Part shown: piece by piece, positions 10,201 to 30,551 of the stretch | How positions within the stretch are numbered: position 1 is the stretch's first letter | Layout of the letters: every line of letters begins with the position of its first letter | Source: Corynebacterium gallinarum | GTDB lineage: Bacteria; Actinomycetota; Actinomycetes; Mycobacteriales; Mycobacteriaceae | Length of the DNA stretch: 64,000 nucleotides | Assembly (NCBI RefSeq): GCF_014837045.1 | Contig: NZ_JACSPR010000011.1 | Coordinates: 1 to 64,000 of the forward strand | Direction of reading: 5' to 3' | Translations under genes and position numbers: made by a program | The notes under the pieces: model-generated | The model's input: the letters and a program-made list of their open reading frames with translations, nothing else | Told to the model about the DNA's origin: nothing | Databases searched by the model: none

Positions 10201-10869
10201 ATGACAATCTCGCACCACCACTCGGCTGATGAAGTGGCAGCCACCGCACGACAGGATGTGCGCACGCGCCAGATCCTCGACGCCGCCGCCACCGTCATGC
10301 AGCGGCATGGTTCCCAGGCGGCCTCCATGAAATCAATCGCCGACGAGGCCCAGGTCTCCGTCGGGTTGATCTACCGCTATTACGAAAACAAGGAAGCCCT
10401 GGTCCGGGCCGTCATCCTTGATGTCCTGGACCAGATGAACTACCAGATCCCCCTGGCGCTGGAACCTGTCGAAGACCCTGTCCGCAGGGTGGCCGCGGCC
10501 TTCACCGCCTACGCGGGGGTGGTCCGGGACAAGCGCAAGGCTGTCCTGCTCACCTACCGCGAAACCGGCAACCTCAACCAGGAGAGCCAGGACCTGGTCA
10601 AGAGCCTGGAATTGCAGACCGGACAGTTTATGCTCCGTGCAGTCCAGGGAGCCATCGAGTCCGGACATTTCCGCGACAACCTCAATCCGAGGCCCTACTC
10701 CTACAACCTCCTGCTCATCGCCCATTCCTGGGCACTGAAGTACTGGTACTTCGCCGAGCGCATGAGTTTCGAGGAGTTTGTCTCGGTGCAGCTGTCCATC
10801 GTGCTCCACGGCGCCCTCAAACCGGAGTTCCACCGGGACTATCCGGATCTGCTCACCGAACAGCCCTGA
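10201..10869 (+). CDS. TetR-family repressor of the cyclohexanecarboxylate cluster
   Basis: A 222-residue TetR protein. The HTH (about 22-68) reads RQILDAAATVMQRHGSQAASMKSIADEAQVSVGLIYRYYENKEALVRAVI. The C-terminal domain resembles TetR_C_33-like acyl-CoA-responsive members (e.g. GNLNQESQDLVKSLELQTGQFM). It is the first gene of a co-directional block and lies 33 bp after two tandem operators. I infer that it represses itself and the following catabolic genes and is released by an acyl-CoA intermediate (ligand unproven). Gap to the next gene: 30 bp, with AAGGAAT as its ribosome site. Confidence 0.88.
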   Translation: MTISHHHSADEVAATARQDVRTRQILDAAATVMQRHGSQAASMKSIADEAQVSVGLIYRYYENKEALVRAVILDVLDQMNYQIPLALEPVEDPVRRVAAAFTAYAGVVRDKRKAVLLTYRETGNLNQESQDLVKSLELQTGQFMLRAVQGAIESGHFRDNLNPRPYSYNLLLIAHSWALKYWYFAERMSFEEFVSVQLSIVLHGALKPEFHRDYPDLLTEQP

Positions 10870-10899: not shown

Positions 10900-11709
10900 A
10901 TGTCTGCTCCCGTCGTCACCACCTTCGAGGACATCCTCTACGAGCGCCGCAACTCCGCCGCGGTGATCACCATCAACCGCCCCCAGCGTTACAACGCCTT
11001 CCGCGCCCAGACCGTGGAGGAACTGATCAAGGCCTTCAAGATGGCCTGGTCCGACAACGGCGTGCAGTCGGTGATCCTCACCGGTGCCGGCGAGAAGGCC
11101 TTCTGTTCCGGTGGCGATGTCAAGCAGCGCGCGGAGACCGGTGACTACGGCCCGAGCGAGTCCGGCCTCTTCGAGATCGGCCTGCTCCACAAGACCATCC
11201 GCGACATCCCCAAGCCCGTCATCGCCGCGGTCAACGGCATCGCGATCGGTGGTGGCCATGTCCTCCACGTGCTCTGCGACCTGACCATCGCCGCCTCCAC
11301 GGCACGCTTCGGGCAGTCCGGCCCGAAGGTCGGTTCCTTCGACGCCGGTTTCGGCAGTGCCTTCCTCGCCCGCATCGTCGGCGAGAAGCGTGCCCGCGAG
11401 ATCTGGTACCTTTGCCGCCAGTACGACGCCCAGACCGCCAAGGAGTGGGGCCTGGTCAACGAGGTGGTTGAGCCCGAGAAGCTTCTCGACGAGGCACTCG
11501 CCTGGGCCGACGAGATCGGTGAGAAATCCCCCACCGCTATCCGCTTCCTCAAGCAGTCCTTCAACGCCGACACCGATCACCAGGCAGGTCTGTCCAACAT
11601 GGCCATGTCCGCACTCGACCTCTACGGTGCGACCGCCGAGGGTATGGAGGGTGCTGTGGCCTTTGCCGAGAAGCGCCAGCCGGACTTCGCCTCCAAGGTA
11701 GGGAAGTAG
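10900..11709 (+). CDS. badI: 2-ketocyclohexanecarboxyl-CoA hydrolase (BadI-like)
   Basis: Crotonase-fold protein (269 residues) that should open the six-carbon ring of 2-ketocyclohexane-1-carboxyl-CoA to pimeloyl-CoA. It is much closer to BadI/MenB than to hydratases: AFCSGGDVKQRAETGDYG, AIGGGHVLHVLCDLTIAA, FGQSGPKVGSFDAGFGSAFLARIVGEKRAREIWYLCRQ and TAIRFLKQSFNADTDHQAG all line up with Rhodopseudomonas BadI as I recall it. The GSFDAG loop is the MenB/BadI active-site hallmark. MenB in menaquinone synthesis is a relative, but there are no men genes nearby and the badH-like and aliB-like neighbours favour BadI. Expected in the cytoplasm. Confidence 0.88.
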   Translation: MSAPVVTTFEDILYERRNSAAVITINRPQRYNAFRAQTVEELIKAFKMAWSDNGVQSVILTGAGEKAFCSGGDVKQRAETGDYGPSESGLFEIGLLHKTIRDIPKPVIAAVNGIAIGGGHVLHVLCDLTIAASTARFGQSGPKVGSFDAGFGSAFLARIVGEKRAREIWYLCRQYDAQTAKEWGLVNEVVEPEKLLDEALAWADEIGEKSPTAIRFLKQSFNADTDHQAGLSNMAMSALDLYGATAEGMEGAVAFAEKRQPDFASKVGK

Positions 11710-11714
11710 GCATC

Positions 11715-12857
11715 ATGGATTTCTCCATCGACGCAGAGATGCAGCGCTACATCGACGAGGCCCGCGCCTTCGGTGAGCAGATCGCCCCGGATTACCAGCA
11801 GCGTGAGATCGACCGCATCATCGACCCGGAACTCCGGAAGGAGATGGGCTCGCGTGGCCTGCTCGCCCCGGAGCTGCCCACTGAACTCGGTGGCCGTGGG
11901 GAACGTGCCCTGACCAGCGGCATGGTCATCGAGGAGGTCTCCCGCGGTGACATCAACGTCTCCTACCTGCAGGTGGTCGGTTCCCTCGTGGGCCAGGTTG
12001 TTGCCCGCAACGCACAGAAATCCGTGGCCGAGAAATGGGTTCCCAAGATCACCAGTGGTGAGGACATCGTGGCCATCGGCCTGTCCGAACCCTCCGGTGG
12101 TTCCGATGCCGGCAACCCCGACATGACCGCGCGCCGGGAGAGGGACGGCTGGGTGCTCAACGGCACCAAGTCCATGTCCTTCGCACTGCACGCCGGCGCC
12201 ACCGTGGTCTTCGCCCGCACCGAGGAGGGACGCCGCGGGCGTGGCATCAGCGCCTTCATCGTCGAACTCGACCGCGAGGGCGTCACCCGCACCGCCGCCA
12301 ACGACATGGGCACCCTGTCCGTGGGCCGTGGGTTCGTCGACTTCGACAATGTCTGGATCCCGGAGGAGAACCTCCTGGGTGCCGAGGGCAAGGCCTTCAC
12401 CGAGGTCATGCAGGGTTTCGACTTCTCCCGCGCACTCATCGGCCTGCAGGTCATCGGCGCCGCCCAGGTCACCCTCGATGAGACCTGGGAGTACACCAGC
12501 ACCCGCCAGGCCTTCGATCAGCCCATCTCCAAATTCCAAGGTGTGTCCTTCCCCCTGGCCGAGGCCGACACCTTCCTCACCGCCGCCCGCGTCATGTGCC
12601 AGAAGACGCTCTGGCTCAAGGATGCTGGCCAGCCCCACACCAAGGAAGCCGCCATGTGCAAGTGGTGGGCACCCAAGGTTGCCTACGACGTGATCAACCA
12701 GTGCCTGCTGTCCCACGGCCAGTTCGGTTACCTCAAGGACCGTCCCATCGAGCAGCGCATGCGCGATGTCCTCGGTCTGCAGATCGGTGATGGCACCGCA
12801 CAGATCATGAAGCTGATCATCGCCCGCCAGAACCTCGGCCGCGAATTCGCACCCTAA
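11715..12857 (+). CDS. aliB: Cyclohexanecarboxyl-CoA dehydrogenase (AliB-like acyl-CoA dehydrogenase)
   Basis: A 380-residue FAD acyl-CoA dehydrogenase expected to oxidise cyclohexanecarboxyl-CoA to cyclohex-1-ene-1-carboxyl-CoA. Family landmarks: IGLSEPSGGSDAGNPDMTARRERDGWVLNGTKSM (substrate/FAD-binding loop), RQAFDQPISKFQGVSFPLAEADT and the C-terminal IGDGTAQIMKLIIARQNLGREFAP. Where most acyl-CoA dehydrogenases have the catalytic glutamate (YEGT), this protein has Asp359 in GDGT. Assignment rests on context (badI 5 nt upstream, badH-like downstream) more than on sequence alone; another cyclic or branched acyl-CoA is possible. Confidence 0.82.
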   Translation: MDFSIDAEMQRYIDEARAFGEQIAPDYQQREIDRIIDPELRKEMGSRGLLAPELPTELGGRGERALTSGMVIEEVSRGDINVSYLQVVGSLVGQVVARNAQKSVAEKWVPKITSGEDIVAIGLSEPSGGSDAGNPDMTARRERDGWVLNGTKSMSFALHAGATVVFARTEEGRRGRGISAFIVELDREGVTRTAANDMGTLSVGRGFVDFDNVWIPEENLLGAEGKAFTEVMQGFDFSRALIGLQVIGAAQVTLDETWEYTSTRQAFDQPISKFQGVSFPLAEADTFLTAARVMCQKTLWLKDAGQPHTKEAAMCKWWAPKVAYDVINQCLLSHGQFGYLKDRPIEQRMRDVLGLQIGDGTAQIMKLIIARQNLGREFAP

Positions 12858-12909: not shown

Positions 12910-13659
12910 ATGAACTCACTCAACGGACGCATCTGCATTGTCACCGGCGCGGCACAGGGAATCGGCAAGGGCATCGCCCAGCGCCTGGCCGCCGAGGGCG
13001 CCACCGTCGTGGTCGCCGACCTCAACGGCGAGGCCGCCAGTGCCACCGCCGCGGAACTGGGCAACGACTCCATCGGTGTCACCGTGGACATCTCCGACCG
13101 CACCGCCGTGGACGCCATGGTCGCCGAGGCGAAGGACAAGTACGGGCGCATCGACGTCCTGGTCAACAACGCCGGCTGGGACAAGATCGGCCCCTTCCTG
13201 GAGATCGAACCGGACGTCTGGGACCGCATCATCAATATCAACCTCTACGGCACCCTGCACTGCTCCCAGTCCGTGGCACGCGTGATGGTGGAGCAGGAGG
13301 GTGGGGGAACCATCATCAACATCGGTTCCGATGCCGCCCGTGTGGGCTCCTCCGGCGAGGCCGTCTACTCCGCCTGCAAGGGTGGCGTGGTCTCCTTCAC
13401 CAAGACCCTCGCCCGTGAACTCGCCCGCTACGGCGTCACCGCGAATGCCATCTGCCCCGGCCCGGCCGACACCCCGCTGTTCGCGCAGATCTCCGAGGAG
13501 AACCCGAAGCTGCGCACCGCCCTGGAAAAGGCCATCCCGCTGCGTCGTCTGGCACAGCCTGAGGACCTGGCCAACGCCGTCGCCTTCTTCGCCTCCCCTG
13601 AGTCCTCCTACATCACCGGTCAGACGCTGTCCGTCTCCGGTGGCCTGACCATGATCTAA
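12910..13659 (+). CDS. badH: 2-hydroxycyclohexanecarboxyl-CoA dehydrogenase (BadH-like SDR)
   Basis: A 249-residue short-chain dehydrogenase that should oxidise 2-hydroxycyclohexane-1-carboxyl-CoA to the 2-keto compound with NAD+. The cofactor motif is VTGAAQGIGKGIA, with Asp at the end of beta-2 (VVADLNG) favouring NAD over NADP. The catalytic set is NNAG, the serine in IGSDAARVGSSGEAVY and Y-x3-K in VYSACKGG. IGSDAARVGSSGEAVYSACKGG and the end TGQTLSVSGGLTM are almost the same as in Rhodopseudomonas BadH, which makes this the most specific assignment in the cluster. Separate ribosome site AAAAGGATTC. Confidence 0.9.
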   Translation: MNSLNGRICIVTGAAQGIGKGIAQRLAAEGATVVVADLNGEAASATAAELGNDSIGVTVDISDRTAVDAMVAEAKDKYGRIDVLVNNAGWDKIGPFLEIEPDVWDRIININLYGTLHCSQSVARVMVEQEGGGTIINIGSDAARVGSSGEAVYSACKGGVVSFTKTLARELARYGVTANAICPGPADTPLFAQISEENPKLRTALEKAIPLRRLAQPEDLANAVAFFASPESSYITGQTLSVSGGLTMI

Positions 13660-13746
13660 CAACCTCACGACTGCGCAGGCCCCTACAATCCCGCGTCGTA
13701 AAGCATCTCCCTTGAGTACCTCCCCAGAGAAACGGATACCAAGACC

Positions 13747-16689
13747 ATGACTGTCGCAACCACCTTCGACATCCTGCTCACCGATGAGGAAAAGCAGAAG
13801 AACACCGAGGCCGGGTTCTGGAAGAACCGCCTCCTCATCGATTACTTCGACCAGGCCGCAGCGGCCAACCCGGACAAGCTCTGCACCGTCGAGCAGAATG
13901 GTCGCCACACCTACAGGGAGCTTGCCGACGACATCGAGATTGCCGCGCACGCCATGATCGAAGCCGGTGTGGAACCCGGCGATGTGGTGGGCATCCACCT
14001 GCCCAACTGGTACGAATGGCTGATCATCCACCTGGCCGCCATGCGCGTCGGCGCGATCACCAACCCGCTCATCCCGATCTACCGCGACCGGGAGATCGGT
14101 CACATGGCCCGAACCGCCAAAGTGTCGGTGCTGTTCATCGCCGAAACCTTCCGCCGCTTCAACTACATGGACATGGTGGACCGGCTCCGCGATGAGCTGC
14201 CCGACCTGAAGAAGACCGTCGTGGTGCGCGGACAAACCAAGCGCAAGGGTTTCGATCTCTTCGAGGATTTCCTCGAGACCGGACGCACGCGCCGGGAGGA
14301 GGCGCCGGTTGATTTCACCGAGCTGCGCCCCGACCCCAACGACCTGGCCCTGATCATGTTCACCTCCGGCACCACCGGCAAGCCCAAGGGTGTCATGCAC
14401 ACCCACAACACCGTGCTCGCCGGCGCGATGCCCTGGCCGGACAAGCTGGGGATGGATGACAGTGATGTCATCCACATGGCCTCCACCTTCGGTCACCTCA
14501 CCGGTTACCTCTACGGCGTGAGCCTGCCGTTCATGCTCGGTGGCACCGCCGTCATCCAGGATGTCTGGAGCGTGGATTACTTCGTCTACCTGGTGGAGAA
14601 GTACCGCATCACCCACACCTCGGGTGCCGCACCGTTCCTCCATGACCTGCTTCATGCGGAGAACCTGCACCACTACGACATGTCCAGCCTCAAGCGGTTC
14701 TGCTGCATGGGTGCGCCGATCCCGCGCGTGTTCATCACCCAGGCCAAGGAGAAACTGCCGGGGATGAGTGTCTTCGGTGGCTGGGGCATGACGGAATGCT
14801 GCCTGACCACCATGGGGCACCCGGATTACCCGGAGGAGAAGATCGTCAACACCGACGGTCGGGCGCTGGCCGGCATGGAGACCCGCGTGGTCGATGAGGA
14901 GGGCAATGAGGTTCCACGTGGAACAGAGGGCCGCCTCCAGGTACGGGGTGCGTTCCTGTTCCGTGGTTACCTCGGCATGCTGGAAGCCACCCGCGCGGAA
15001 TATGAGGGTGACTGGTTCAACACCGGTGACCTGGCGATCATGGACGATGAGGGGTTCATCTCCCTCTCGGGGCGCGACAAGGATGTCATCATCCGCGGTG
15101 GTGAGAACGTTCCCGTCGCCGACCTCGAGAACGCCCTGATCCAGCACCCGGACATCGCAGATGTGGCGGTGGTGGCGATGCCACACGACCGCCTGCAGGA
15201 GATCGCCGCTGCGGTGGTGGTCATGGAGCACGGCCGCGAGCCCATCACCATGGAGACCATGAAGGCGCATCTGGAATCCACCAACATCGCCAAGCCGTAC
15301 TGGCCGGAATACCTCGAGATCAGCGACGAACTTCCCCGCACCCCCTCGGGCAAACCACAGAAGTTCAAGCTGCGTGAGCACCTGGCAGAGGTGGCGGAGA
15401 AGCTCAAACAGGATGATATCGACAACGGTATCGTTGCCACCCCGGGACAGATCACCGCCCCGCCGGTACTCACCAACCCCCGCGGTTCCTGGTGGGGCCC
15501 GGTCGACACCACCCAGATGGACAGCCTGTTCTCCGTGGAGGAGAAATCCACCGCCCTGAAGGTCCGGCAGTTCGTGGACCGGGAGATCCGCCCCAACATC
15601 GCCGAATGGTACAACGCAGGCCACTTCCCCAAGGAGATCATCCCGGAGCTGGGCAAACTCGGCGTGCTGGGCATGTACCTCAAGGGCTTCGACTGCCCGG
15701 GCCGCTCCGCCGTGGAATACGGCCTGGCGGCACAGGAACTGGAGGCCGGTGACTCCGGTCTGCGCACCTTCGTCTCCGTCCAGGGTTCGCTGGCAATGGC
15801 CGCGATCCGCAAGCACGGATCCCTGGATCAGAAACTCGAATGGCTGCCCCGCATGGCCAGGGGTGAGGCCGTGGGTTGCTTCGGTCTGACCGAACCCACC
15901 GCCGGGTCCAACCCCGCGGCGATGAAGACCTTCGCCCGCCAGGAGCCGGGCGGCGACTGGGTTCTCAACGGCACCAAACGCTGGATCGGCCTGGCGAATA
16001 TCGCCGATGTGGCCATCATCTGGGCCCAGACCGAGGAATTCGGCGACGGCCGCGGGGTCCGCGGTTTCGTGGTCCCCACCGACACCCCGGGCTTCTCCGC
16101 CCAGGTCATCGAACCGAAACTGTCCATGCGTGCCTCCGTCCAGTGCGAGATCACCATGGAGGATGTCCGCCTCCCCTACACCGCGATGCTGCCGAAGGAC
16201 TCCGCCGTGGGTCTGCGCGGACCGTTCTCCTGCCTCAACGAGGCCCGCTACGGAATCGTGTGGGGTGTGCTCGGAGCCGCCCGCGACTCCTTCAACTCGG
16301 CACTGGAATACTCCCACCACCGCGAGCAGTTCGGCACCCCGCTGACCCACTTCCAGATCACCCAGACCAAACTGGCGGACATGGCCGTGGCCATCAACAA
16401 GGGCTACCACCTGGCGCACCACATCGGACGCCTCAAGGACACCACCGGTGTGACCCCGGAGATGATCTCCACCGGCAAACTGGACAACACCCGCATCGCC
16501 ATCCAGATCGCTCGCGATGCCCGCGCCATGCTCGGCGGCAACGGCATCTCCATGGACTACTCACCACTACGCCACGCCAACAACCTCGAATCGGTGCGCA
16601 CCTATGAGGGCACCGACGAGGTCCACCAGCTCACCATCGGCCGGTTCATCACCGGCGTCGGCGCATTCACCGCACAAGGAGCGAAGTAA
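13747..16689 (+). CDS. Fused acyl-CoA ligase (AliA-like) and glutaryl-CoA-dehydrogenase-like protein
   Basis: One uninterrupted 980-codon frame holds two enzymes. Residues about 1-545 form an AMP-dependent acyl-CoA synthetase: P-loop MFTSGTTGKPKGVMH near 204, GGWGMTE, the STGD-like NTGDLA region and the C-terminal lysine motif PSGKPQKFK near 535. I read it as cyclohexanecarboxylate-CoA ligase. After a linker (about 545-590), residues 591-980 form an acyl-CoA dehydrogenase of the glutaryl-CoA type. It keeps Arg673 in GLRTFVSVQGSLAM, which aligns with the carboxylate-binding arginine of glutaryl-CoA dehydrogenase, and Tyr953-Glu954 in TYEGTDEVH, the catalytic base. So it probably acts on a dicarboxyl-CoA such as pimeloyl- or glutaryl-CoA. 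The crotonase gene follows directly after the stop codon. Confidence 0.88.
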   Translation: MTVATTFDILLTDEEKQKNTEAGFWKNRLLIDYFDQAAAANPDKLCTVEQNGRHTYRELADDIEIAAHAMIEAGVEPGDVVGIHLPNWYEWLIIHLAAMRVGAITNPLIPIYRDREIGHMARTAKVSVLFIAETFRRFNYMDMVDRLRDELPDLKKTVVVRGQTKRKGFDLFEDFLETGRTRREEAPVDFTELRPDPNDLALIMFTSGTTGKPKGVMHTHNTVLAGAMPWPDKLGMDDSDVIHMASTFGHLTGYLYGVSLPFMLGGTAVIQDVWSVDYFVYLVEKYRITHTSGAAPFLHDLLHAENLHHYDMSSLKRFCCMGAPIPRVFITQAKEKLPGMSVFGGWGMTECCLTTMGHPDYPEEKIVNTDGRALAGMETRVVDEEGNEVPRGTEGRLQVRGAFLFRGYLGMLEATRAEYEGDWFNTGDLAIMDDEGFISLSGRDKDVIIRGGENVPVADLENALIQHPDIADVAVVAMPHDRLQEIAAAVVVMEHGREPITMETMKAHLESTNIAKPYWPEYLEISDELPRTPSGKPQKFKLREHLAEVAEKLKQDDIDNGIVATPGQITAPPVLTNPRGSWWGPVDTTQMDSLFSVEEKSTALKVRQFVDREIRPNIAEWYNAGHFPKEIIPELGKLGVLGMYLKGFDCPGRSAVEYGLAAQELEAGDSGLRTFVSVQGSLAMAAIRKHGSLDQKLEWLPRMARGEAVGCFGLTEPTAGSNPAAMKTFARQEPGGDWVLNGTKRWIGLANIADVAIIWAQTEEFGDGRGVRGFVVPTDTPGFSAQVIEPKLSMRASVQCEITMEDVRLPYTAMLPKDSAVGLRGPFSCLNEARYGIVWGVLGAARDSFNSALEYSHHREQFGTPLTHFQITQTKLADMAVAINKGYHLAHHIGRLKDTTGVTPEMISTGKLDNTRIAIQIARDARAMLGGNGISMDYSPLRHANNLESVRTYEGTDEVHQLTIGRFITGVGAFTAQGAK

Positions 16690-17499
16690 ATGACGAACTC
16701 CATTACAGAGCAGAACACCGCCACCGGTTTCGAGGCCATCACCGCGGAGGCCACCGACCGCATCGGTGTCATCACCATCAACCGGCCGGAGAAACGCAAT
16801 GCGCTGTCCAAGACGGTGCTCGCGGAGATCGGCCGGGTCCTGGATGCCTGGGAGGGGGACCCCGATGTGCAGGCGGTCATCTTCACCGGTGCCGGCGAGA
16901 AGGCGTTTGTGGCTGGTGCGGATATCTCCCAGCTGGCCCACTATGACCTCCACTACGGTCTGGCCGCCCATATGCAGAAGCTCTATGACCGGATCGAGGA
17001 CTACCCCAAGCCGACGATCGCAGCCATCAACGGTGTGGCGCTCGGTGGCGGTCTGGAACTGGCCATGAGCTGTGACATCCGGATTGTCTCCGAGAACGCC
17101 AAGGTGGGTCTGCCGGAAGCCACCCTGGGTGTGCTGCCCGGGGCGGGTGGAACCCAGCGGCTGTCGCGCCTGGTGGGCAAGGGCCGTGCGGTGGAGATGA
17201 TCCTCACCTCCCGTGTCCTGACCGCCCAGCAGGCACTGGATTACGGGCTGGCCACGGAGGTGCACCCACTGGCTGAGCTTGTCGACGCCGCCCGCACCAC
17301 GGCCGGCACCATCCTGAGCAAGGGACCGCTGGCGGTGCAGCTGGCCAAACTGGTCATCGGCAACGGCGCGGAGACCGATCAGCGCACGGGCCTGCTGCTG
17401 GAGCGTCTCGCGCAGACCCTGCTCTACACCACCGAGGACAAGGCAGAGGGCGCGGATGCGTTCCTGAACAAGCGGACACCGGAATTCAAGGGGAATTAA
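16690..17499 (+). CDS. Enoyl-CoA hydratase (BadK-like crotonase)
   Basis: A 269-residue crotonase. Both catalytic glutamates of true hydratases are present: in ALGGGLELAMSCD and in VGLPEATLGVLPGAGGTQRL. The oxyanion-hole region is AFVAGADISQL. It can hydrate cyclohex-1-ene-1-carboxyl-CoA (BadK role), crotonyl-CoA or 2,3-didehydropimeloyl-CoA; the sequence does not discriminate. The start ATG directly abuts the stop codon of the fusion gene, so the two are translationally coupled. Confidence 0.9.
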   Translation: MTNSITEQNTATGFEAITAEATDRIGVITINRPEKRNALSKTVLAEIGRVLDAWEGDPDVQAVIFTGAGEKAFVAGADISQLAHYDLHYGLAAHMQKLYDRIEDYPKPTIAAINGVALGGGLELAMSCDIRIVSENAKVGLPEATLGVLPGAGGTQRLSRLVGKGRAVEMILTSRVLTAQQALDYGLATEVHPLAELVDAARTTAGTILSKGPLAVQLAKLVIGNGAETDQRTGLLLERLAQTLLYTTEDKAEGADAFLNKRTPEFKGN

Positions 17500-17501
17500 A
17501 C

Positions 17502-18362
17502 ATGGTCGAGGTACACAAGATCGCCGTCATCGGCTCCGGTGCCATGGGCCGGCAGATCGGCATGGCGGCAGCCGTCGCCGGGTATGACGCGGTGGTGCAG
17601 GACATCTCCGCCGAGGCCGTCGAGGCCGCGGAACAGGATATGCGGACCTGGGCCGCCGGCCGGGTGACCAAGGGTCGCATGAGCCAGGAGGATGTGGATG
17701 CGGCACTGGGCCGGTTGCGTTTCACCACCGATCAGGCTGACGCGGTGGGCGATGCCGACCTGGTCATCGAGGCTGCCACCGAACGCCTGGACATCAAACG
17801 TCAGGTGTTCACCCAGATCGATGAGCTGGCCCCGGAGCATGCGATCCTGGCCACCAACTCCTCCACCTATGGGTCCTCCTCGGTGGCGGATGCCACCAAC
17901 CGCCCCGAGAAGGTCTGCAATATGCACTTCTTCAACCCCGCGCTGGTGATGAAGGCGGTGGAGGTGGTCCGGCATGAGAAGACCTCCGATGACACCGTCG
18001 ACAGTGTCATCGCCGTGATCGAGAAGATGGGCAAGCACCCGGTGGTGCTGAACGCGGAGATCCCCGGGTTCATCGCCAACCGCCTCATGGGGGCGGTGCG
18101 CACTGAGGCCCTCAACCTGGTGGAGCAGAACATCGCCTCCATCGAGGACATCGACACCGCCGCGAAGTCCGCCCTGGGCCACCCCATGGGCCCGTTCGAG
18201 CTCATGGACCTGGTCGGTCTGGATGTCACCTACCTCATCCGCAAGGCCACCTTCGAGCTGACCGGGGATGAATCCGAGGCTCCGCACCCGCTCATCACCG
18301 CCAAATACGAGGCGGGGGAGTTGGGCCGCAAGTCGGGCAAGGGCTGGTACACCTATGACTGA
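17502..18362 (+). CDS. 3-hydroxyacyl-CoA dehydrogenase
   Basis: A 286-residue NAD-dependent enzyme. N-terminal Rossmann motif AVIGSGAMGRQIGMAAAVAGY, NSSTYGSSSVADATNRPEKVCNMHFFNPALVMKAVEVV with catalytic His in MHFFNP, and C-terminal dimerisation region KSALGHPMGPFELMDLVGLDV. Of PaaH/Hbd length. It fits beta-oxidation of the ring-opened pimeloyl-CoA or 3-hydroxybutyryl-CoA downstream of crotonyl-CoA. The gene begins 2 nt after the crotonase stop and overlaps the next start by 8 nt: a tight operon. Confidence 0.92.
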   Translation: MVEVHKIAVIGSGAMGRQIGMAAAVAGYDAVVQDISAEAVEAAEQDMRTWAAGRVTKGRMSQEDVDAALGRLRFTTDQADAVGDADLVIEAATERLDIKRQVFTQIDELAPEHAILATNSSTYGSSSVADATNRPEKVCNMHFFNPALVMKAVEVVRHEKTSDDTVDSVIAVIEKMGKHPVVLNAEIPGFIANRLMGAVRTEALNLVEQNIASIEDIDTAAKSALGHPMGPFELMDLVGLDVTYLIRKATFELTGDESEAPHPLITAKYEAGELGRKSGKGWYTYD

Positions 18363-19065
18363 CGGTCGCCGCGCGGTGGTGGTCGGTGCCGGCGGGATCG
18401 GCACGGCGGTGGTGAACCGCCTGCTTGTCGACGCCCCCGTCACCGTCGCCTACCACCGGAACCGCCCCACGGGGCTGGCCCCAGACGTGCCCGTGGTGCA
18501 GCTCGACGCCACCGACCCTGCGGGGGTAGACCGGGCGTTCGGTGAGGTCGAGGAGTTCGACACCCTGGTGATCACCACCGGACACCGCCACGAGCTGGAC
18601 TTCTTCACCCGCCAGGACGCGAGCGCGGCGGAGGAGATCATCGCGGTGGAATTGCTGGGGCCGATGAACCTGGTGCGCGCAGCACTGAAGAGGTTCGGTG
18701 ATTATGGGCGCATTGTCATCGTGGGATCGGATTCCGGCAAGGCCGGCACCCTGGGTGATGCGGCCTCCTCGGCGGCACGCGCCGGGCTCATGGGATTTGT
18801 GCGTTCCATCGCCCGGGAGACGGCGCGCATGGACATCACCATCAATATCGTCAGCCCCGGGCCCACCGACACCCCGCTGCTGACGGACATGCTGGACGGT
18901 GACGGACTGACCGCCAAGGTGATGGCCGGGACCGTCAAGGCGGTGCCCAAGGGCAGGAAAGCCACGCCGGAGGAGATCGCGGAGGCGGTGGCCTACTTCA
19001 CCCACCCGCGGGCTGGCTTCACCACCGGACAGGTGTTGTCCGTGTCCGGTGGGCTGACCATGTAG
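18355..19065 (+). CDS. Second SDR dehydrogenase of the CHC cluster
   Basis: A 236-residue short-chain dehydrogenase. Start ATG at 18355 overlaps the previous gene by 8 nt; an upstream ATG at 18268 would overlap far more and reads a non-SDR peptide. Cofactor motif VVVGAGGIGTAVVNRL is a shortened, atypical TGxxxGxG. The active-site Ser is in IVIVGSDSGKAGTLGDA; the canonical Tyr-x3-Lys is replaced by a segment reading AASSAARAG, so Tyr and Lys are missing there. The end TGQVLSVSGGLTM matches BadH. With the catalytic Tyr/Lys lost it may be a non-catalytic partner or use an altered mechanism. Last gene of the block. Confidence 0.8.
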   Translation: MTDGRRAVVVGAGGIGTAVVNRLLVDAPVTVAYHRNRPTGLAPDVPVVQLDATDPAGVDRAFGEVEEFDTLVITTGHRHELDFFTRQDASAAEEIIAVELLGPMNLVRAALKRFGDYGRIVIVGSDSGKAGTLGDAASSAARAGLMGFVRSIARETARMDITINIVSPGPTDTPLLTDMLDGDGLTAKVMAGTVKAVPKGRKATPEEIAEAVAYFTHPRAGFTTGQVLSVSGGLTM

Positions 19066-22377: not shown

Positions 22378-23154
22378 ATGGCCAATTCTCGATCAGGTGA
22401 ATCCGTCCTCCAGCGGACGGTGCGTATCCTGAAGGCTTTTGATGTTGACCATCCCCGGCTCAGTGCGGCTGAGATCTGCCGGCGCACGGGGTTGCCTCAG
22501 TCCACTGCGCATCGGCTTGCCAATGAAATGTGTGATGTCGGGCTTCTGCAGAGACTGCAGGAGGGCGATTTCATCGTCAGTCCCACCGCATGGGAGATGT
22601 TTGTGCGCAGTAATCCCCTGGAACGGCTCCGGTTCCGTGCCCAGCCGGTGATGGAAAGCGTCCACAACACCCTGCGGCACTACGTCAGCCTGACGACACC
22701 TGATTTTGAACAACGGAGCATCCTCTACATCGAGCGGTTCAACTCGCGCAGTGATGCCAGCATCCTCGGTCGCCATGCCAGCCGTCTCGACTTACACACC
22801 ACATCATCAGGGCTGGTCATGCTGGCATTCGCCCGGGATTCCATCGTGGATCAGGTGCTCTCCGTCCCCCTCAAGGATTCCATCACCGGGGTGATCATCG
22901 ACCCGGGTGAGATCAGGGCGATGCTCCCGGGTATCAGGAAGAAGGGGTATACGCATATCGTCGGTGGACTGGTCGCGGAGAACACCTCCATGGCAGTACC
23001 CATCTTTGATGCTCGTGGCATTGTCATCGCCGCGCTGGGGGTGGTGGCGAAAACCGCGGAATGTGATCACGAATCGGTTATTTCCACCCTGCGTGTAGCG
23101 GGGCGGAATCTCAGCCTGAGCTTGGGTGATGTGCCCGACATTCCCACCTTCTGA
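22378..23154 (+). CDS. IclR-family transcriptional regulator
   Basis: A 258-residue regulator. Winged HTH at about 10-65: SVLQRTVRILKAFDVDHPRLSAAEICRRTGLPQSTAHRLANEM. The C-terminal effector domain (about 85-250) contains RLDLHTTSSGLVMLAFARD, RKKGYTHIVGGLVAENTSMAVPIFDARGIVIAALGVV, the IclR small-ligand pocket. It is the first gene of a co-directional catabolic block and is the likely local regulator. Effector unknown; a hydroaromatic acid such as shikimate or quinate is inferred from the neighbours. AGGAG lies just before the ATG at tight spacing. A terminator hairpin separates it from the transporter gene. Confidence 0.9.
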   Translation: MANSRSGESVLQRTVRILKAFDVDHPRLSAAEICRRTGLPQSTAHRLANEMCDVGLLQRLQEGDFIVSPTAWEMFVRSNPLERLRFRAQPVMESVHNTLRHYVSLTTPDFEQRSILYIERFNSRSDASILGRHASRLDLHTTSSGLVMLAFARDSIVDQVLSVPLKDSITGVIIDPGEIRAMLPGIRKKGYTHIVGGLVAENTSMAVPIFDARGIVIAALGVVAKTAECDHESVISTLRVAGRNLSLSLGDVPDIPTF

Positions 23155-23203
23155 CGGGAGCCACACGGGTCATCAGACATCATGTTCGCAGTGTGCACAT
23201 CCC

Positions 23204-23246
23204 CCCGCCTTCCCATTGAATGGGTGAAAGCGGGATCACGTTTTTC
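23204..23246 (+). terminator. Intrinsic terminator after the IclR gene
   Basis: Stem CCCGC-TT-CCCATT / AATGGG-AA-GCGGG (23204-23234) followed by ATCACGTTTTTC. Terminator-like although the T-run starts 6 nt after the stem. Confidence 0.65.
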
Positions 23247-23297
23247 TCTATTTTATGCTTCACATCACACAAAGTCGTGATCTCCCAACAAGATCAC
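23234..23297 (+). promoter_or_regulatory. Promoter and possible operator of the hydroaromatic operon
   Basis: GATCACG (23234-23240) and CGTGATC (23276-23282) form an inverted pair around TATGCT (about 23255-23260), a plausible -10. A third half-site GATCAC lies at 23292-23297. The arrangement fits IclR control of the transporter operon. Inference from position and symmetry. Confidence 0.45.
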
Positions 23298-23322
23298 TTT
23301 CACCCTTTTGAAGGAGACCACC

Positions 23323-24756
23323 GTGGATATGACACGCAAGCTGAACCCGCCAGGCAACGCCTACGAGAGCAACACCGTAGGCTCCTCCGCCGCCCTCCTG
23401 GAAAGGCCGGTTGTGGAAACCACTGAAGCCCCCGAAGCGGGCAAGTCGCCTAAGAAGGCCGCCATGGCCTCCCTGCTCGGATCGACACTCGAATACTATG
23501 ATTTCGTCATCTACGGCACCGCCTCGGCACTGCTGTTCAGTCAGATCTTCTTCCCCGAGGGTAACCCCGCAGTGGCCACCATCGCATCCCTCGCCTCCTT
23601 CGGCGTGGCCTACATTGCCCGCCCCATCGGCGGTCTGGTGATGGGACATGTCGGTGACCGGATCAGCCGCAAGACAGCCCTGATGATCACCCTGCTGATC
23701 ATGGGTGCGGCATCCATCGCCATCGGCCTGCTGCCCACCTACGGCATGATCGGCATCTGGGCCACCGTCCTGCTCTTCGTCTGCCGAGTCGCCCAGGGCT
23801 TCTCCGCAGGTGCAGAATCAGCGGGTGCCTCCACACTGACGATGGAACACTCCCCCGAGGGGCGTCGTGGCCTGTTCACCAGCTCAGTGATGGTGGGATG
23901 TGCCGCCGGTAATGTGCTCGCCGGATTGGTGTTCATTCCCTTCCTCATGCTGCCCGAGGAGCACCTCATGACATGGGGCTGGCGTGTGCCGTTCCTCCTG
24001 TCCGCAGTTGTTCTCCTGGTGGCCTACTTCATCCGTACCCGACTCGAAGAGCCTGAGGTGCTGAAAGAGGCCATCGAGGAAACCTCACCCACGGATGCCG
24101 CCGTTCACCAGGCACCGGCCATCGCCGTGCTCCAGACCCAGGGCATCGACGTACTGAAGGTCTTCTTCATCACCTTCTTCTCCGTCGTCCAGACCATCTT
24201 CAATGTCTATGCCCTGGCCTACGCCACGGGGGAGATGGGCATCGAACGCTCGCTCATGGTCACGGTCAACACCCTCGCAATGGGCCTGTCGCTCTTTACC
24301 ATCCCCCTGGCCGCCTGGGTCTCAGACAAGGTGGGACGTCGTCCGGTTCTGCTCTTCAGTGCGGTTGGTTCAGGAATCACCACCTTCTTCTACTTCCAGG
24401 CCATCAGCGAAGTGAATGTTCCACTGATCTTCCTGTTCTGCATCCTCAACCAGGGCCTGTTCTATGCCTGCTGGAATGGTGTCTGGACCATCTTCTTCCC
24501 GGAGATGTTCGCAGCTCCGGTCCGCTACACCGGAATGGCCATGGGCAACCAGCTGGGACTCATCGTGGTGGGATTCGCCCCATCCATCGCCACCGCCCTT
24601 CACCTCCAGGGGGGATGGATCGCCGTGGTGCTCTTCGTCCTCGCAGCTCTGACCATCGCGTCCGTGACCATCCTGACCTGCCGGGAAACGGCCTTCACGC
24701 CGATGAAGGACCTGGGCAGGAAACGTCCGAACACCTTCGTCCCCACCAACCAGTAA
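23323..24756 (+). CDS. MHS-family major facilitator transporter (ShiA-like)
   Basis: A 12-helix proton symporter of the metabolite:H+ symporter family. I use GTG at 23323 because AAGGAG lies 6 nt upstream; TTG at 23308 and ATG at 23329 are alternatives. Family marks: STLEYYDFVIYGTASALLFSQIFFP (helix 1), GRP-like ARPIGGLVMGHVGDRISRK (loop 2-3) and RVAQGFSAGAESAGAS (helix 4/5). The closest described group imports shikimate, alpha-ketoglutarate or proline/betaine; QsuD-like and dehydrogenase neighbours point to a hydroaromatic or aromatic acid. The N-terminal ~45 residues are hydrophilic. First gene of a tightly packed operon. Confidence 0.88.
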   Translation: MDMTRKLNPPGNAYESNTVGSSAALLERPVVETTEAPEAGKSPKKAAMASLLGSTLEYYDFVIYGTASALLFSQIFFPEGNPAVATIASLASFGVAYIARPIGGLVMGHVGDRISRKTALMITLLIMGAASIAIGLLPTYGMIGIWATVLLFVCRVAQGFSAGAESAGASTLTMEHSPEGRRGLFTSSVMVGCAAGNVLAGLVFIPFLMLPEEHLMTWGWRVPFLLSAVVLLVAYFIRTRLEEPEVLKEAIEETSPTDAAVHQAPAIAVLQTQGIDVLKVFFITFFSVVQTIFNVYALAYATGEMGIERSLMVTVNTLAMGLSLFTIPLAAWVSDKVGRRPVLLFSAVGSGITTFFYFQAISEVNVPLIFLFCILNQGLFYACWNGVWTIFFPEMFAAPVRYTGMAMGNQLGLIVVGFAPSIATALHLQGGWIAVVLFVLAALTIASVTILTCRETAFTPMKDLGRKRPNTFVPTNQ

Positions 24757-24795
24757 TTCATCATCATTTTTCACACCAAGGAGAACATCGTCCAC

Positions 24796-25875
24796 ATGGC
24801 TACCACCTGGCGCGTCGGAATCATCGGCTGCGGAGCTATTTCCCGCAACCACATCGAGGCATTCAACACCATCGAGGGAGCAGAGGTCACCATCGTCTGT
24901 GATGTTGATGCGGATCGTGCGGCCCACACCGCGGACACCTACGGTATCCCGGCCCACACCACCTCCGTGGAGGAACTACTCGCCCACGGCGTTGATATTG
25001 TCTCCGTCTGCACCCCACACCCCACCCATGAGGAGGTTGTTCTGGCGGCAGCGGCAGCCGGTGTCCACGTTGTGTGCGAAAAGCCCATTGCCATCCAGCT
25101 GAGTTCCGCTGAGCGCATGGTCGCGGCCTGCCGGGAGGCGGGGGTCAAACTGGGTGTGTTGTTCCAGCGTCGTTTCTGGTCCGCCGCCCAGGAGATGAAG
25201 AACAGTTTCATCGAGGGCCGGCTGGGTACTCCCGTGCTGGGGCAGTGCAATGTTATCCTCCACCGCGATACCTCCTACTATTCCGCCACCCCGTGGCGTG
25301 GTACCTGGGACAGCGACGGTGGCGGTGTGCTGATGACCCAGGCGATCCATTACATCGATCTGCTGCAGTGGGTTCTCGGTGAGCCTGAGGAGGTGTTCGG
25401 TCACATCGCCACCTTCAAGCACGGTGAGCATATCGAGGTGGAGGATTCCGCAGTGGCCACGGTCCGTTTCGCCTCCGGCGCACTGGCGACAATCCAGGCG
25501 TCCACTGCCGTGAACCCCTCGCTGGGCGCGCAGGTTCAGGTCACCGGTTCCAGCGGAGCCACCATGACCCTGCTCGAATTCCCGGAGGGGACCGAAGGCC
25601 GGTTGACCGTCCGTGCCGCCGAGGGCCACATCGATGCCACGCAGTCCTACCCGGCCGGGGTGGATCCCAATGTGGACCTGGGTTCGATCAATGGGGCTCT
25701 CATCCCGTACCACGTGGCCCAGATCGCCGACTTCATCGATGCCCTCCACGAGGATCGTGAGCCCGCCGTCAACGGTGAGGATGCCACCCGTGCCCTCCGG
25801 GTGCTGCTGGGCATCTATGAATCCGCCTCCTCCGGGGTCCCTGTCCGTCTCGGCAATTCGGTGTCGACCGCTTAA
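24796..25875 (+). CDS. Gfo/Idh/MocA-family NAD(P)-dependent dehydrogenase
   Basis: A 359-residue oxidoreductase of the glucose-fructose oxidoreductase / inositol dehydrogenase family. Rossmann motif VGIIGCGAISRNHIEAF, the EKP motif HVVCEKPIAIQL with the conserved lysine, and the C-terminal sheet domain containing GGVLMTQAIHYIDLLQWVLGEPEEV with the catalytic-region histidine. Many relatives oxidise or epimerise polyhydroxylated rings (inositol, quinate-like or sugar acids). In this cluster it may oxidise a ring hydroxyl. AAGGAGAAC precedes the ATG. Confidence 0.9.
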   Translation: MATTWRVGIIGCGAISRNHIEAFNTIEGAEVTIVCDVDADRAAHTADTYGIPAHTTSVEELLAHGVDIVSVCTPHPTHEEVVLAAAAAGVHVVCEKPIAIQLSSAERMVAACREAGVKLGVLFQRRFWSAAQEMKNSFIEGRLGTPVLGQCNVILHRDTSYYSATPWRGTWDSDGGGVLMTQAIHYIDLLQWVLGEPEEVFGHIATFKHGEHIEVEDSAVATVRFASGALATIQASTAVNPSLGAQVQVTGSSGATMTLLEFPEGTEGRLTVRAAEGHIDATQSYPAGVDPNVDLGSINGALIPYHVAQIADFIDALHEDREPAVNGEDATRALRVLLGIYESASSGVPVRLGNSVSTA

Positions 25876-25903
25876 GTCGACCGGTTACATCAAAGGAGTA
25901 GTA

Positions 25904-27943
25904 ATGAACCATTCTCTTCCTGGTTCGCCCGAGCTGGTGACCGTCGACAAGCCCCTCGAGCTGGGACGGCACGGCCGGCCCACCCTGCGGCTGAAGAACC
26001 GCATCGTCACCAGTCCGATGGAGCGCAACTACGGCACCTCGGACGGACGCCCGACGGAACAGTACCTGGATTATCTCCGCGCCCGCGCGGTGGCCGGTGC
26101 CGGTCTGATCACCACCGAGGCGACCTTCGTGCGTGAAGACGGCCGGGGCCGCACCCACCAACTCGGCCTGCACACCGACGCCGTGATCGCATCCCACCGC
26201 CGTCTCACCGATGAGCTGCATGCGGCAGGTGCCCTCGTGGCCGTGGAACTCAACCACGGTGGCCGCACCGCCCAGGCTGAGGTATCCGGCCACCCGAGCG
26301 TCGCTCCGTCCCCCATCCCCTGCGCCGTCGCAGGTGGGGAGATGCCGCGGGAGCTGACCACCGCGCAGTGCCGGGAGCTTGTCGACGCGTTCGCCGAGGC
26401 CGCCCGACGCGCCGTCGACGCCGGTTACGACGTCATCAACCTGCACGGTGGACACGGCTACCTGATCCATCAGTTCATGTCCCCGCGCACCAACCAGCGC
26501 AGCGACGAATACGCGGTACCGGAGCGCTTCGCCAACGAGGTCATCGCGGCGGTGCGCCGGGCCGCACCCACCATCATTCTCGGGATCCGCATCTCCGTCG
26601 TGGAGGGTGTGGAGGACGGACTCGATGCTGAGACCACCCGTGAGATCGTGGGCCGGCTCGATCTCGACCAGTTGGACTTCCTCGATCTGTCAGCAGGCAG
26701 CTATGAGGCGGGCGAATGGATTGTGCAGTCGGGTGAATGGTCCCGGGGTTTCCTCGCGGACCTCGCCGCGAGCTACCGCGACCTGGGTCTGCCCATCGGG
26801 ATGGCCGGCAGGCTCAACACCGTCGATGCCGTCAAACGCGTGCTGGCCGAGGGCACCTGCGACTTCGTGTCGCTGGGTCGGGCGGTCCATGCAGATCCCG
26901 ATTTCATCGGTGGACTGCTGCACGGACACCGCTTCCGCCCCTGCATCGCCTGCAACGTGTGCATCGACAACCTCGGGGTCGGGCAGGTCACCTGCACCGT
27001 CAACCCGCAGGTCGGGCGATCACGGGTGCCGGTGGCTACCGGCGACGTCACCGGGCGTCGTATAGCAGTCGTTGGGGCCGGACCCTCCGGGTTGACGGCC
27101 GCCCTGGAACTGTCCCGCGCCGGGGCGGAGGTGACCATCTACGAGGCCTCCGACCACATCGGCGGTGACCTTGCCTTCGCCTCCACCATGCGCTCCACCC
27201 CGGAATTCCCCGGTTTCATGACCTGGATGCAGGAGGAGATCGAGGCCTACGGCATGGATCTGCGTCTGGATTCACGGATCTCGCCCGAGGACCTCGCGGA
27301 TACTCCCGCCGATGGGATCGTCCTGGCTACCGGCGGCATCCCGCAGGACCCGGGTTTTGACACCGGGGCCGAGCAGACCATCCAGATCCGGGAATGGCTG
27401 AAGGCCAATCCGGATGCCCTCGGGAGCAACCCCCCGGAGCAGGTAACCATCTGGGGATCGGACTCCGTGGCCATGAGCGTGGCGGACACCCTGGCCAGCC
27501 GGGGAACCAAGGTCCTGCTCATCGGCGATCAGGAGACGATCGCTCCCGAGGCGGGGAGGCGGGCCAAGATCCTCGCGGTCCCGCGCCTGCAGGAAGCACC
27601 CAATGTGACCATCGTGCTGTCCTCCCGCGTGATCAGTATCGACGACGGGGAGATCACCATTGTCGGCCCCGACGGGGAGTACGTACTGCCCACCGCAGGC
27701 CCCGTGCTGGTCAGCCGCTCCACCCGCCCGCTGAACCCGGCGGTGGTTCCCTCAGGCCGGGAAGCGGCCATGAGCAGGGCAGCCGGAAAACCGGTGGTGC
27801 TCGCCGGAACCGTCGTCGAAACCGCCGCCCCGATCGTGTCCACAGCCACCAAGAGCGGTTACGACGCCGCCCAGCGCCTGGCCCACCGCATCTGCCACCC
27901 CACCCAGATTCTCGACCCACTCACCACCGGAGTTCTCTCATGA
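25904..27943 (+). CDS. FadH-like 2-enoate / 2,4-dienoyl reductase (FMN, Fe-S, FAD)
   Basis: A 679-residue old-yellow-enzyme multidomain reductase. Residues about 20-360 are the FMN TIM barrel: NRIVTSPMERNYG, VELNHGGRTA, GYDVINLHGGHGYLIHQFMSPRTNQR and the FMN-phosphate end FVSLGRAVHADPDF. The Fe-S cysteine cluster follows, CIACNVCIDNLGVGQVTCTVNP (C-x2-C-x3-C variant with a downstream Cys). Residues about 380-670 are the NAD/FAD domain: RIAVVGAGPSGLTAALELSRAGAEVTIYE. It reduces conjugated C=C bonds of acids or acyl-CoAs. The ATG at 25904 follows AAAGGAGTA. Overlaps the next gene by 4 bp. Confidence 0.9.
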   Translation: MNHSLPGSPELVTVDKPLELGRHGRPTLRLKNRIVTSPMERNYGTSDGRPTEQYLDYLRARAVAGAGLITTEATFVREDGRGRTHQLGLHTDAVIASHRRLTDELHAAGALVAVELNHGGRTAQAEVSGHPSVAPSPIPCAVAGGEMPRELTTAQCRELVDAFAEAARRAVDAGYDVINLHGGHGYLIHQFMSPRTNQRSDEYAVPERFANEVIAAVRRAAPTIILGIRISVVEGVEDGLDAETTREIVGRLDLDQLDFLDLSAGSYEAGEWIVQSGEWSRGFLADLAASYRDLGLPIGMAGRLNTVDAVKRVLAEGTCDFVSLGRAVHADPDFIGGLLHGHRFRPCIACNVCIDNLGVGQVTCTVNPQVGRSRVPVATGDVTGRRIAVVGAGPSGLTAALELSRAGAEVTIYEASDHIGGDLAFASTMRSTPEFPGFMTWMQEEIEAYGMDLRLDSRISPEDLADTPADGIVLATGGIPQDPGFDTGAEQTIQIREWLKANPDALGSNPPEQVTIWGSDSVAMSVADTLASRGTKVLLIGDQETIAPEAGRRAKILAVPRLQEAPNVTIVLSSRVISIDDGEITIVGPDGEYVLPTAGPVLVSRSTRPLNPAVVPSGREAAMSRAAGKPVVLAGTVVETAAPIVSTATKSGYDAAQRLAHRICHPTQILDPLTTGVLS

Positions 27944-28764
27944 TCAGAAATATCGGGCTCGCACCCCTCTCGGCCCTCACCACCCCATCCGATGAACTCA
28001 TCCGGATGGCTGCCAACGCTGGTTTTTCCTTCGTCGGCCTGCGGGTTCTTGCCGTCACCCCGGACGAACCACACTATGACCTGGCGCCCGGTTCACCACT
28101 GCTGAACCGCACGCTCCGTGCTCTGGACGAGACCGGCCTGCATGTGGTGGATACCGAATTCCTCCAGGTCAATGCCCACACCGATCGCGACACCTGGTTG
28201 CCAGCCCTCGAGGCAGCCGGAGCCCTGGGTGCCACCCGTTTCACCGTGGCAGCCGGGGATGAGAACCTGTCACGGCTCACCGACACCCTGGGTTCCCTGG
28301 TTGCCGACGCCGCCGAGTTCGGGGTGATCCCGGCACTGGAACCCATCACCTACCGCAGCGTCCATTCCATTCCCCAGGCGGTTGCCATCGCCGAGGCCAC
28401 CGGTGTCCGGGTGCTTGCGGACACCCTGCACATGGCCCGCTTCGGCGCGACACTCGATGAACTGCACATGGCTGCCGACTTCATCGACATGATCCAGTTG
28501 TGCGACAGCCCCCTGCAGGCTCCGGCGGAAACCGAGGGGCTCATCTATGAATCCCGCGCGGCACGTCTCGCGCCGGGGGATGGAGAACAGCCGCTGGCTG
28601 ATTTCGTCGCAGCCCTGCCCGAGGACACCCTGATCAGCGTGGAGGTTCCCAACGACGCTGAACTGACCCTGCGTGGCCCCCAGAACTGGATCAACCACCT
28701 GTACAACACCACCCGAGCAATGCTGGAACAGCCTGCTCTCATTCCCGTAGGAGGACGGAAATAA
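27940..28764 (+). CDS. TIM-barrel sugar-phosphate isomerase/epimerase-like protein
   Basis: A 274-residue AP-endonuclease-2-fold protein. Metal-binding acids are visible: E in PALEPITYR, D and H in VLADTLHMARFG, and E in LISVEVPND. PGDGEQPLADFVAALPEDTLISVEVP is typical of xylose-isomerase-like family members. 3-Dehydroshikimate dehydratases (AsbF, the N-domain of QsuB) share this fold, so it may dehydrate or isomerise a hydroaromatic acid here; I cannot decide. Start ATG overlaps the preceding stop (ATGA) and the stop overlaps the next ATG by one base: translational coupling on both sides. Confidence 0.82.
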   Translation: MIRNIGLAPLSALTTPSDELIRMAANAGFSFVGLRVLAVTPDEPHYDLAPGSPLLNRTLRALDETGLHVVDTEFLQVNAHTDRDTWLPALEAAGALGATRFTVAAGDENLSRLTDTLGSLVADAAEFGVIPALEPITYRSVHSIPQAVAIAEATGVRVLADTLHMARFGATLDELHMAADFIDMIQLCDSPLQAPAETEGLIYESRAARLAPGDGEQPLADFVAALPEDTLISVEVPNDAELTLRGPQNWINHLYNTTRAMLEQPALIPVGGRK

Positions 28765-30545: not shown

Positions 30546-30551
30546 GCGGAT

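Follow-up and report, generated by a model that had tools for sequence, protein, structure and literature searches.

A conserved acyl-CoA ligase–dehydrogenase fusion in a bad-ali-type gene cluster of Corynebacterium and its plausible origin by loss of a thiolase gene

Introduction

According to the accessible parts of the reports on Rhodopseudomonas palustris and Aromatoleum (PMC9795900) and on Rhodococcus aetherivorans (PMC5906575), a ligase, AliB, a hydratase, BadH and BadI together lead to pimeloyl-CoA, and beta-oxidation of this dicarboxylate then gives glutaryl-CoA, on which a glutaryl-CoA dehydrogenase acts. In the chcpca cluster of R. aetherivorans, aliA adjoins a gene annotated as glutaryl-CoA dehydrogenase, and cyclohexanecarboxylate induced aliA and other chcpca genes; the dehydrogenase gene is not named among the induced genes in the accessible text (PMC5906575). 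The bad-ali cluster is already known in Corynebacterium, for the legend of Figure 6 of PMC9795900 lists C. efficiens and C. terpenotabidum as bearers. A 64,000-nucleotide stretch of Corynebacterium gallinarum DNA (contig NZ_JACSPR010000011.1, positions 1 to 64,000; hereafter the window) carries such a cluster, in which a single gene at 13747–16689 encodes an acyl-CoA ligase joined to an acyl-CoA dehydrogenase. The bad-ali clusters of Gram-positive bacteria and the Rhodococcus chcpca cluster have a similar gene set and a TetR-type regulator, but no protein fusion is mentioned in the accessible parts of these papers (PMC9795900, PMC5906575). None of the literature matches listed describes the fusion in its title or abstract opening, although the authors of PMC9795900 may have drawn it in a figure.

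The fusion protein is probably a bifunctional enzyme of a bad-ali-type cyclohexanecarboxylate cluster, which combines the entry ligase with a late enzyme acting on glutaryl-CoA and was joined once, plausibly through the loss of a thiolase gene. This reading is based on the fusion, its conservation, its single clade, its gene context, its kept catalytic residues and a gene order common to two unfused clusters.

The fusion gene and its distribution

The gene and its parts are as follows.

13747–16689, + strand: ligase–dehydrogenase fusion gene, 980 codons without internal stop
13747–15390, + strand: AliA-type cyclohexanecarboxylate-CoA ligase domain, residues 1–548 (assigned by TIGR03208 as best NCBIfam model, the P-loop and Lys536)
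15391–15510, + strand: linker, residues 549–588, with PGQ...GSWWGPVD as its second half
15499–16671, + strand: glutaryl-CoA dehydrogenase-type domain of the RWIG...Q type, residues 585–975 (assigned by motifs and by 3swo as best solved relative)
15988–15990, + strand: codon 748, Gly replacing the flavin-facing Thr of the KxWIT motif (assigned by alignment; compare T317G in PMC6017585)

Pfam assigns AMP-binding to residues 34–409 and AMP-binding_C to residues 460–536, followed by the N (598–707), M (711–807) and C (823–968) domains of acyl-CoA dehydrogenases, in agreement with an earlier note, made from the window alone, that one frame joins the two enzymes. The fusion gene has the highest codon score (474) of the open reading frames called in the window, under a codon model whose training set partly included this gene. 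An antisense open reading frame of 1168 codons (12916–16422, − strand) spans most of the fusion gene and its neighbour and is most likely spurious because the opposite strand is conserved coding sequence.

The earlier note proposed a search for the same fusion in other genomes and regarded its absence from relatives as a refutation. When the three best candidates of each of 242 Corynebacterium genomes were scored, a full-length, stop-free fusion was found in seven, with identities of 100, 97, 87, 84, 82, 79 and 76%; the seven include the named records Corynebacterium lubricantis DSM 45231 and uncultured Corynebacterium. A sequencing error that merged two genes into one frame is therefore practically ruled out, since the same stop-free architecture recurs in all seven genomes, and the fusion is real and conserved in some Corynebacterium species. 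No fusion was found outside the genus in mutually overlapping samples of the order (397 genomes), phylum (396) and family (401), in which two candidates per genome were scored. One full-length match outside the genus, in genome G1017, was rejected because it consists of two separate adjacent genes 60 nucleotides apart; the dehydrogenase beside the ligase there is of the other motif type. No plasmid-borne fusion was found: 25 of 72,556 records match at 1e-100, and in none of these 25 does one place cover 80% of the protein. The case represents a lineage-bound fusion of two enzymes of one pathway that are not neighbours in reaction order.

The two halves of the protein

The best NCBIfam model for the ligase half is TIGR03208, the AliA family of the bad-ali pathway of R. 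palustris and Aromatoleum, and annotated aliA genes of Paraburkholderia and Salipiger are 39% identical to it. The P-loop TSGTTGKPKG at residue 206 and the C-terminal Lys536, both typical of the adenylate-forming superfamily, are identical in all seven fusions. The ligase half resembles AliA in its best family, its catalytic motifs and its aliB- and badH-like neighbours, beside which a badI candidate lies, and differs from it in a score below the cut-off (496.6 bits against 792.3) and in the attached dehydrogenase.

Among solved structures, the second half is closest to glutaryl-CoA dehydrogenases, with 3swo at an E value of 1.3e-146. Arg673, Tyr953 and Glu954 are the equivalents of Arg94, Tyr369 and Glu370 of the human enzyme, and Arg673 and Glu954 are identical in 7/7 fusions. 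As described in the accessible part of PMC3169403, this Arg contacts the terminal carboxylate of glutaryl-CoA, the Tyr–Glu pair is catalytic, and relatives of this half are tetramers. Because the carboxylate-binding Arg and the Tyr–Glu pair are kept, glutaryl-CoA is favoured over a ring ester as the substrate. In sequence family and in these three residues, the fused half resembles the glutaryl-CoA dehydrogenases 3swo, 3sf6, 2eba and human 1siq/1sir, but it has Gly and Gln where they have Thr, and a ligase is attached to it. The active-site residues of both halves, which the earlier note took to be intact, are so for the P-loop, Lys536, Arg673 and Glu954; Gly748 and Gln799 of the dehydrogenase half depart from the classical residues.

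The gene cluster and the proposed reactions

The fusion gene lies in a run of same-strand genes (TetR, badI/menB-like, aliB, badH, fusion, enoyl-CoA hydratase, 3-hydroxyacyl-CoA dehydrogenase (HBD) and a short-chain dehydrogenase homolog), in which the family names are best assignments.

10201–10869, + strand: TetR-type regulator, first gene of the cluster (Pfam)
10900–11709, + strand: BadI/MenB-type ring hydrolase candidate (MenB 354.5 bits and badI 324.9 bits, both below cut-offs)
11715–12857, + strand: AliB, cyclohexanecarboxyl-CoA dehydrogenase (TIGR03207 best, 476.2 bits, cut-off 575.35)
12910–13659, + strand: BadH, 2-hydroxycyclohexanecarboxyl-CoA dehydrogenase (TIGR03206 best, 304.4 bits, cut-off 431.2)
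16690–17499, + strand: enoyl-CoA hydratase (domain and family matches)
17502–18362, + strand: HBD (domain and family matches)
18355–19065, + strand: short-chain dehydrogenase homolog lacking the catalytic Tyr and Lys (domain match and motif comparison)

From these assignments we infer that the N-terminal half would activate cyclohexanecarboxylate, or a closely related alicyclic acid, by forming the CoA ester in step one. Once the ring has been opened to pimeloyl-CoA and a single round of beta-oxidation has followed, the C-terminal half would oxidise and probably decarboxylate glutaryl-CoA to crotonyl-CoA. By the published order of the pathway, the fused activities are a first and a late step and not consecutive ones, as the earlier note had said. 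The joint would hand no product from one site to the next; it would fix the entry enzyme and the late enzyme at a 1:1 ratio and, should the dehydrogenase half form a tetramer as its relatives do, would place both activities on one particle. Channelling of CoA intermediates, an option raised in the earlier note, is possible.

The two steps would become consecutive if either half had another substrate. If the ligase half activated glutarate or another dicarboxylate, the fusion would have a simple reason, and the sequence comparisons made here do not reveal the specificity of the ligase. This is improbable, since the best family is that of cyclohexanecarboxylate-CoA ligases, to which the 39% identical aliA products of Paraburkholderia and Salipiger also point, and the unfused ligase relatives cluster with badI-, aliB- and badH-like genes. 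Moreover, the same genome encodes, at another site, an unfused paralog of the fused dehydrogenase, and within 5 kb of this paralog a gene that matches glutarate CoA-transferase best (322.7 bits, below the cut-off of 750). The converse proposal, that the dehydrogenase half oxidises the ring acyl-CoA produced by the ligase half, was raised in the earlier note and is more improbable still. The cluster already has a separate AliB (11715–12857), the residues for glutaryl-CoA are kept, and the paralog near the glutarate CoA-transferase-type gene argues against it as well. Furthermore, loci L060, L061 and L095 hold the same enzyme type beside HBD genes, and neither badI nor aliB is matched in the stretches read there; a hydratase lies by the HBD gene in L095, together with a distant ligase (31%), and a hydratase fragment does so in L060.

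The last gene of the cluster is BadH-like, and the YSACK motif of BadH is replaced by SSAAR in all seven fused clusters; its product is a conserved, probably non-catalytic member. A further acyl-CoA dehydrogenase, ACAD2, occurs in four of the seven fused clusters and is missing from that of the window and from L054 and L055.

Origin of the fusion

The comparison covered nine unfused ligase clusters of other genera. A PcaF-type thiolase gene directly follows the ligase in five of them, in four cases overlapping it by 4 nucleotides; the thiolases of L158 and L159 were assigned through their 71–73% identity to that of L076. In the others, the ligase is followed by a hydratase (2/9), by the dehydrogenase (1/9) or by the end of the run (1/9). 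L076 and L077, which belong to other families, have the order badI–aliB–badH–ligase–thiolase–dehydrogenase–hydratase–HBD, followed by ACAD2, and from badI to HBD all seven fused clusters show this same order minus the thiolase. In L078, L158 and L159 the thiolase also comes right after the ligase, but other genes intervene before the dehydrogenase; L080, at a contig end, holds thiolase, dehydrogenase, a hydratase fragment and HBD. The order shared by L076 and L077, with the thiolase between ligase and dehydrogenase, makes thiolase loss a plausible route to the fusion. On this route, the ligase and dehydrogenase genes would have stood close together in the cluster and become fused on a single occasion, in one lineage of Corynebacterium, when the intervening thiolase gene and the ligase stop were lost. 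At 6/8 unfused junctions measured (L077, L078, L081, L082, L158 and L159), the end of the ligase gene and the start of its neighbour share 4 nucleotides, and such tight coupling may facilitate gene fusion.

A tree of 54 rows places the seven fused dehydrogenase domains in a single clade (support 98/95), beside which four unfused Corynebacterium rows branch, the eleven together having support of 100/100. A single fusion event is the simplest reading.

Several observations weigh against this picture of an AliA-type entry enzyme joined once through thiolase loss. The scores of the ligase, AliB and BadH all lie under the curated equivalog cut-offs, and the badI candidate scores higher on the MenB model than on the badI model. 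Routes other than thiolase deletion are conceivable: in the unfused clusters L081 and L082 the ligase is not followed by a thiolase, and the dehydrogenase of L082 stands at the far end of the run. The fused clusters differ from L076 and L077 by the added short-chain dehydrogenase gene, and three of the seven have no ACAD2. Around each of the four unfused relatives in Corynebacterium, the 18–19 kb read contain no ligase, and the dehydrogenase may therefore have been acquired by another route; these relatives may also have lost the ligase from a fused ancestor. The full-length structure model of the fusion is poor (predicted local distance difference test score 67.5, predicted template modelling score 0.47), and about 23 residues at the ligase C-terminus are misplaced in nine rows of the alignment behind it.

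The linker and the value of the joint

The first part of the linker is a continuation of the ligase C-terminus. Its second half (PGQ...GSWWGPVD) is homologous to an N-terminal extension of two of the four close unfused Corynebacterium enzymes (L060 and L061); this extension was not seen in the other two, L062 and L063. An internal translation start yielding free dehydrogenase was considered and rejected, since, in the window, no Shine-Dalgarno-like site precedes any of the five in-frame starts at residues 549–640.

There is a substantial possibility, though short of an even chance, that the fusion is a neutral read-through product, in which each half works as it did alone and the joint serves nothing but co-expression. 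In agreement with this, the linker is the least conserved region (mean pairwise identity 0.64, against 0.80 and 0.87 for the other regions). It also has the highest ratio of nonsynonymous to synonymous substitution rates in all 6 pairs compared (0.14–0.57, against 0.09–0.31 for the ligase and 0.04–0.21 for the dehydrogenase), as estimated by a simple counting method on 6 of 21 possible pairs with partly saturated synonymous sites. All three regions stay below 0.6 in these pairs, and the low ratios of the two enzyme halves count in favour of the bifunctional reading. In addition, the ligase gene is the same-strand neighbour of badH in all nine unfused clusters, suggesting that co-expression probably predates the fusion. 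Against neutrality, the linker has stayed free of stops in seven species down to 76% identity, and its length of 39–40 residues and the GSWWGPVD stretch are kept in 7/7 fusions, although this stretch also occurs in unfused relatives. Comparison with unfused clusters of nearly the same gene order can test whether such fusions persist because of channelling, because of stoichiometry or without any benefit.

The flavin site and the electron acceptor

The fused domain has KRWIG where 3swo, 3sf6, 2eba and the human enzyme have KxWIT, so that the hydroxyl residue of the motif is absent (Gly748), and RASVQ, ending in Gln799, where the classical R-A-S-V-T motif ends in Thr. Across 60 Corynebacterium genomes, Gly is paired with Gln in 37/37 rows and Thr with Thr in 27/27 rows, after removal of rows below 48% identity. 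The RWIG/Q clade spans five family groups in the tree. According to the accessible part of PMC6017585, the residue at the position of Gly748 is a dioxygen gatekeeper in an engineered acyl-CoA dehydrogenase; T317G was the sole one of three single changes in methylsuccinyl-CoA dehydrogenase to give significant oxidase activity, low relative to the dehydrogenase activity, and the authors liken their E377N to Asn255 of Arabidopsis acyl-CoA oxidase 4 (ACX4, 2ix5). The fused half shares with ACX4 the KRWIG motif with Gly in place of the flavin-facing Thr. It differs in that Asn255 of ACX4 aligns, through ACAD2, with Gln799, which is also an amide but a different residue, and in that the fused half is nearer to glutaryl-CoA dehydrogenase (494 bits with 3swo, against 216.5 with ACX4).

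Ten of the 16 actinobacterial clusters read hold both the dehydrogenase and ACAD2, and the two are of matching type in all ten: ACAD2 is of the Gly/Gln type in 6/6 Gly-type clusters, and both proteins are Thr-type in 4/4 Thr-type clusters. Since the Thr-type ACAD2 is only 36% identical to the ACAD2 of L056 and the two kinds are not close to each other, it looks as if different enzymes were used, rather than one enzyme having changed in parallel. In a Salipiger cluster where a gene is annotated as the beta subunit of electron-transferring flavoprotein (ETF) and adjoins one for an FAD-binding protein, the glutaryl-CoA-dehydrogenase-like protein keeps Ser at the motif position.

These features raise the tentative possibility that the fused half and the whole RWIG/Q clade are glutaryl-CoA oxidases, which would pass electrons to O2. 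The Gly–Gln pairing and the shared type of dehydrogenase and ACAD2 support this, as does the genome of the window, which has no match to the Fer4_ETF_QO domain or to the CCG domain of EtfD-type proteins. On the other hand, ETF is present in 241 of the 242 Corynebacterium genomes, that of the window included, and its absence was therefore rejected as support. EtfD occurs in 145 of the 242, in two of the seven fusion genomes and, among genomes with a single motif type, in 13/33 Gly-type and 18/26 Thr-type genomes (Fisher p 0.035, uncorrected for kinship); this association is weak, and EtfD was rejected as a sharp marker. The retained Trp of the motif also speaks against an oxidase, as does the engineered enzyme, whose oxidase activity was only low when Thr-to-Gly was its single change (PMC6017585). 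If the fused half is an oxidase, these Corynebacterium clusters could oxidise pimeloyl-CoA through the ACX4-like ACAD2 and glutaryl-CoA through the fusion with no need of a quinone-linked ETF. The protein would then represent an acyl-CoA ligase–oxidase, a kind not found among the literature matches listed. The flavin half points to a natural clade in which the dioxygen-gatekeeper residue has already been changed.

Two further candidates were dropped. A CCG-domain protein of genome G030 was rejected as EtfD-like since it reads as a FAD-binding, D-lactate-dehydrogenase-like protein. Loss of the flavin Thr in AliB was set aside: with the one-residue gap that the alignment requires, Ser may fall at this position, where the two proteobacterial AliB proteins also have Ser.

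Other catabolic genes

A PcaF-type thiolase (by best families, below cut-off) is encoded elsewhere in the genome of the window in a phenylacetate-type gene run and is 56% identical to the L076 thiolase. In the same genome, locus L064 (G000:C22:94000-112000) holds a TRAP transporter, a CaiB-type CoA-transferase with glutarate CoA-transferase as its best family, a thiolase, an unfused RWIG-type dehydrogenase and an ACX4-like ACAD2 that is 61% identical to that of L056. Within the window, an adjoining run at 22378–31424 encodes an IclR regulator, an MFS transporter, a Gfo/Idh oxidoreductase, a 668-residue old-yellow-enzyme-type reductase, a TIM-barrel protein, a FAD_binding_2 flavoprotein and a protein whose N-terminal domain is that of shikimate dehydrogenase. 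The run looks catabolic and might supply the ring pathway with a reduced shikimate-like acid.

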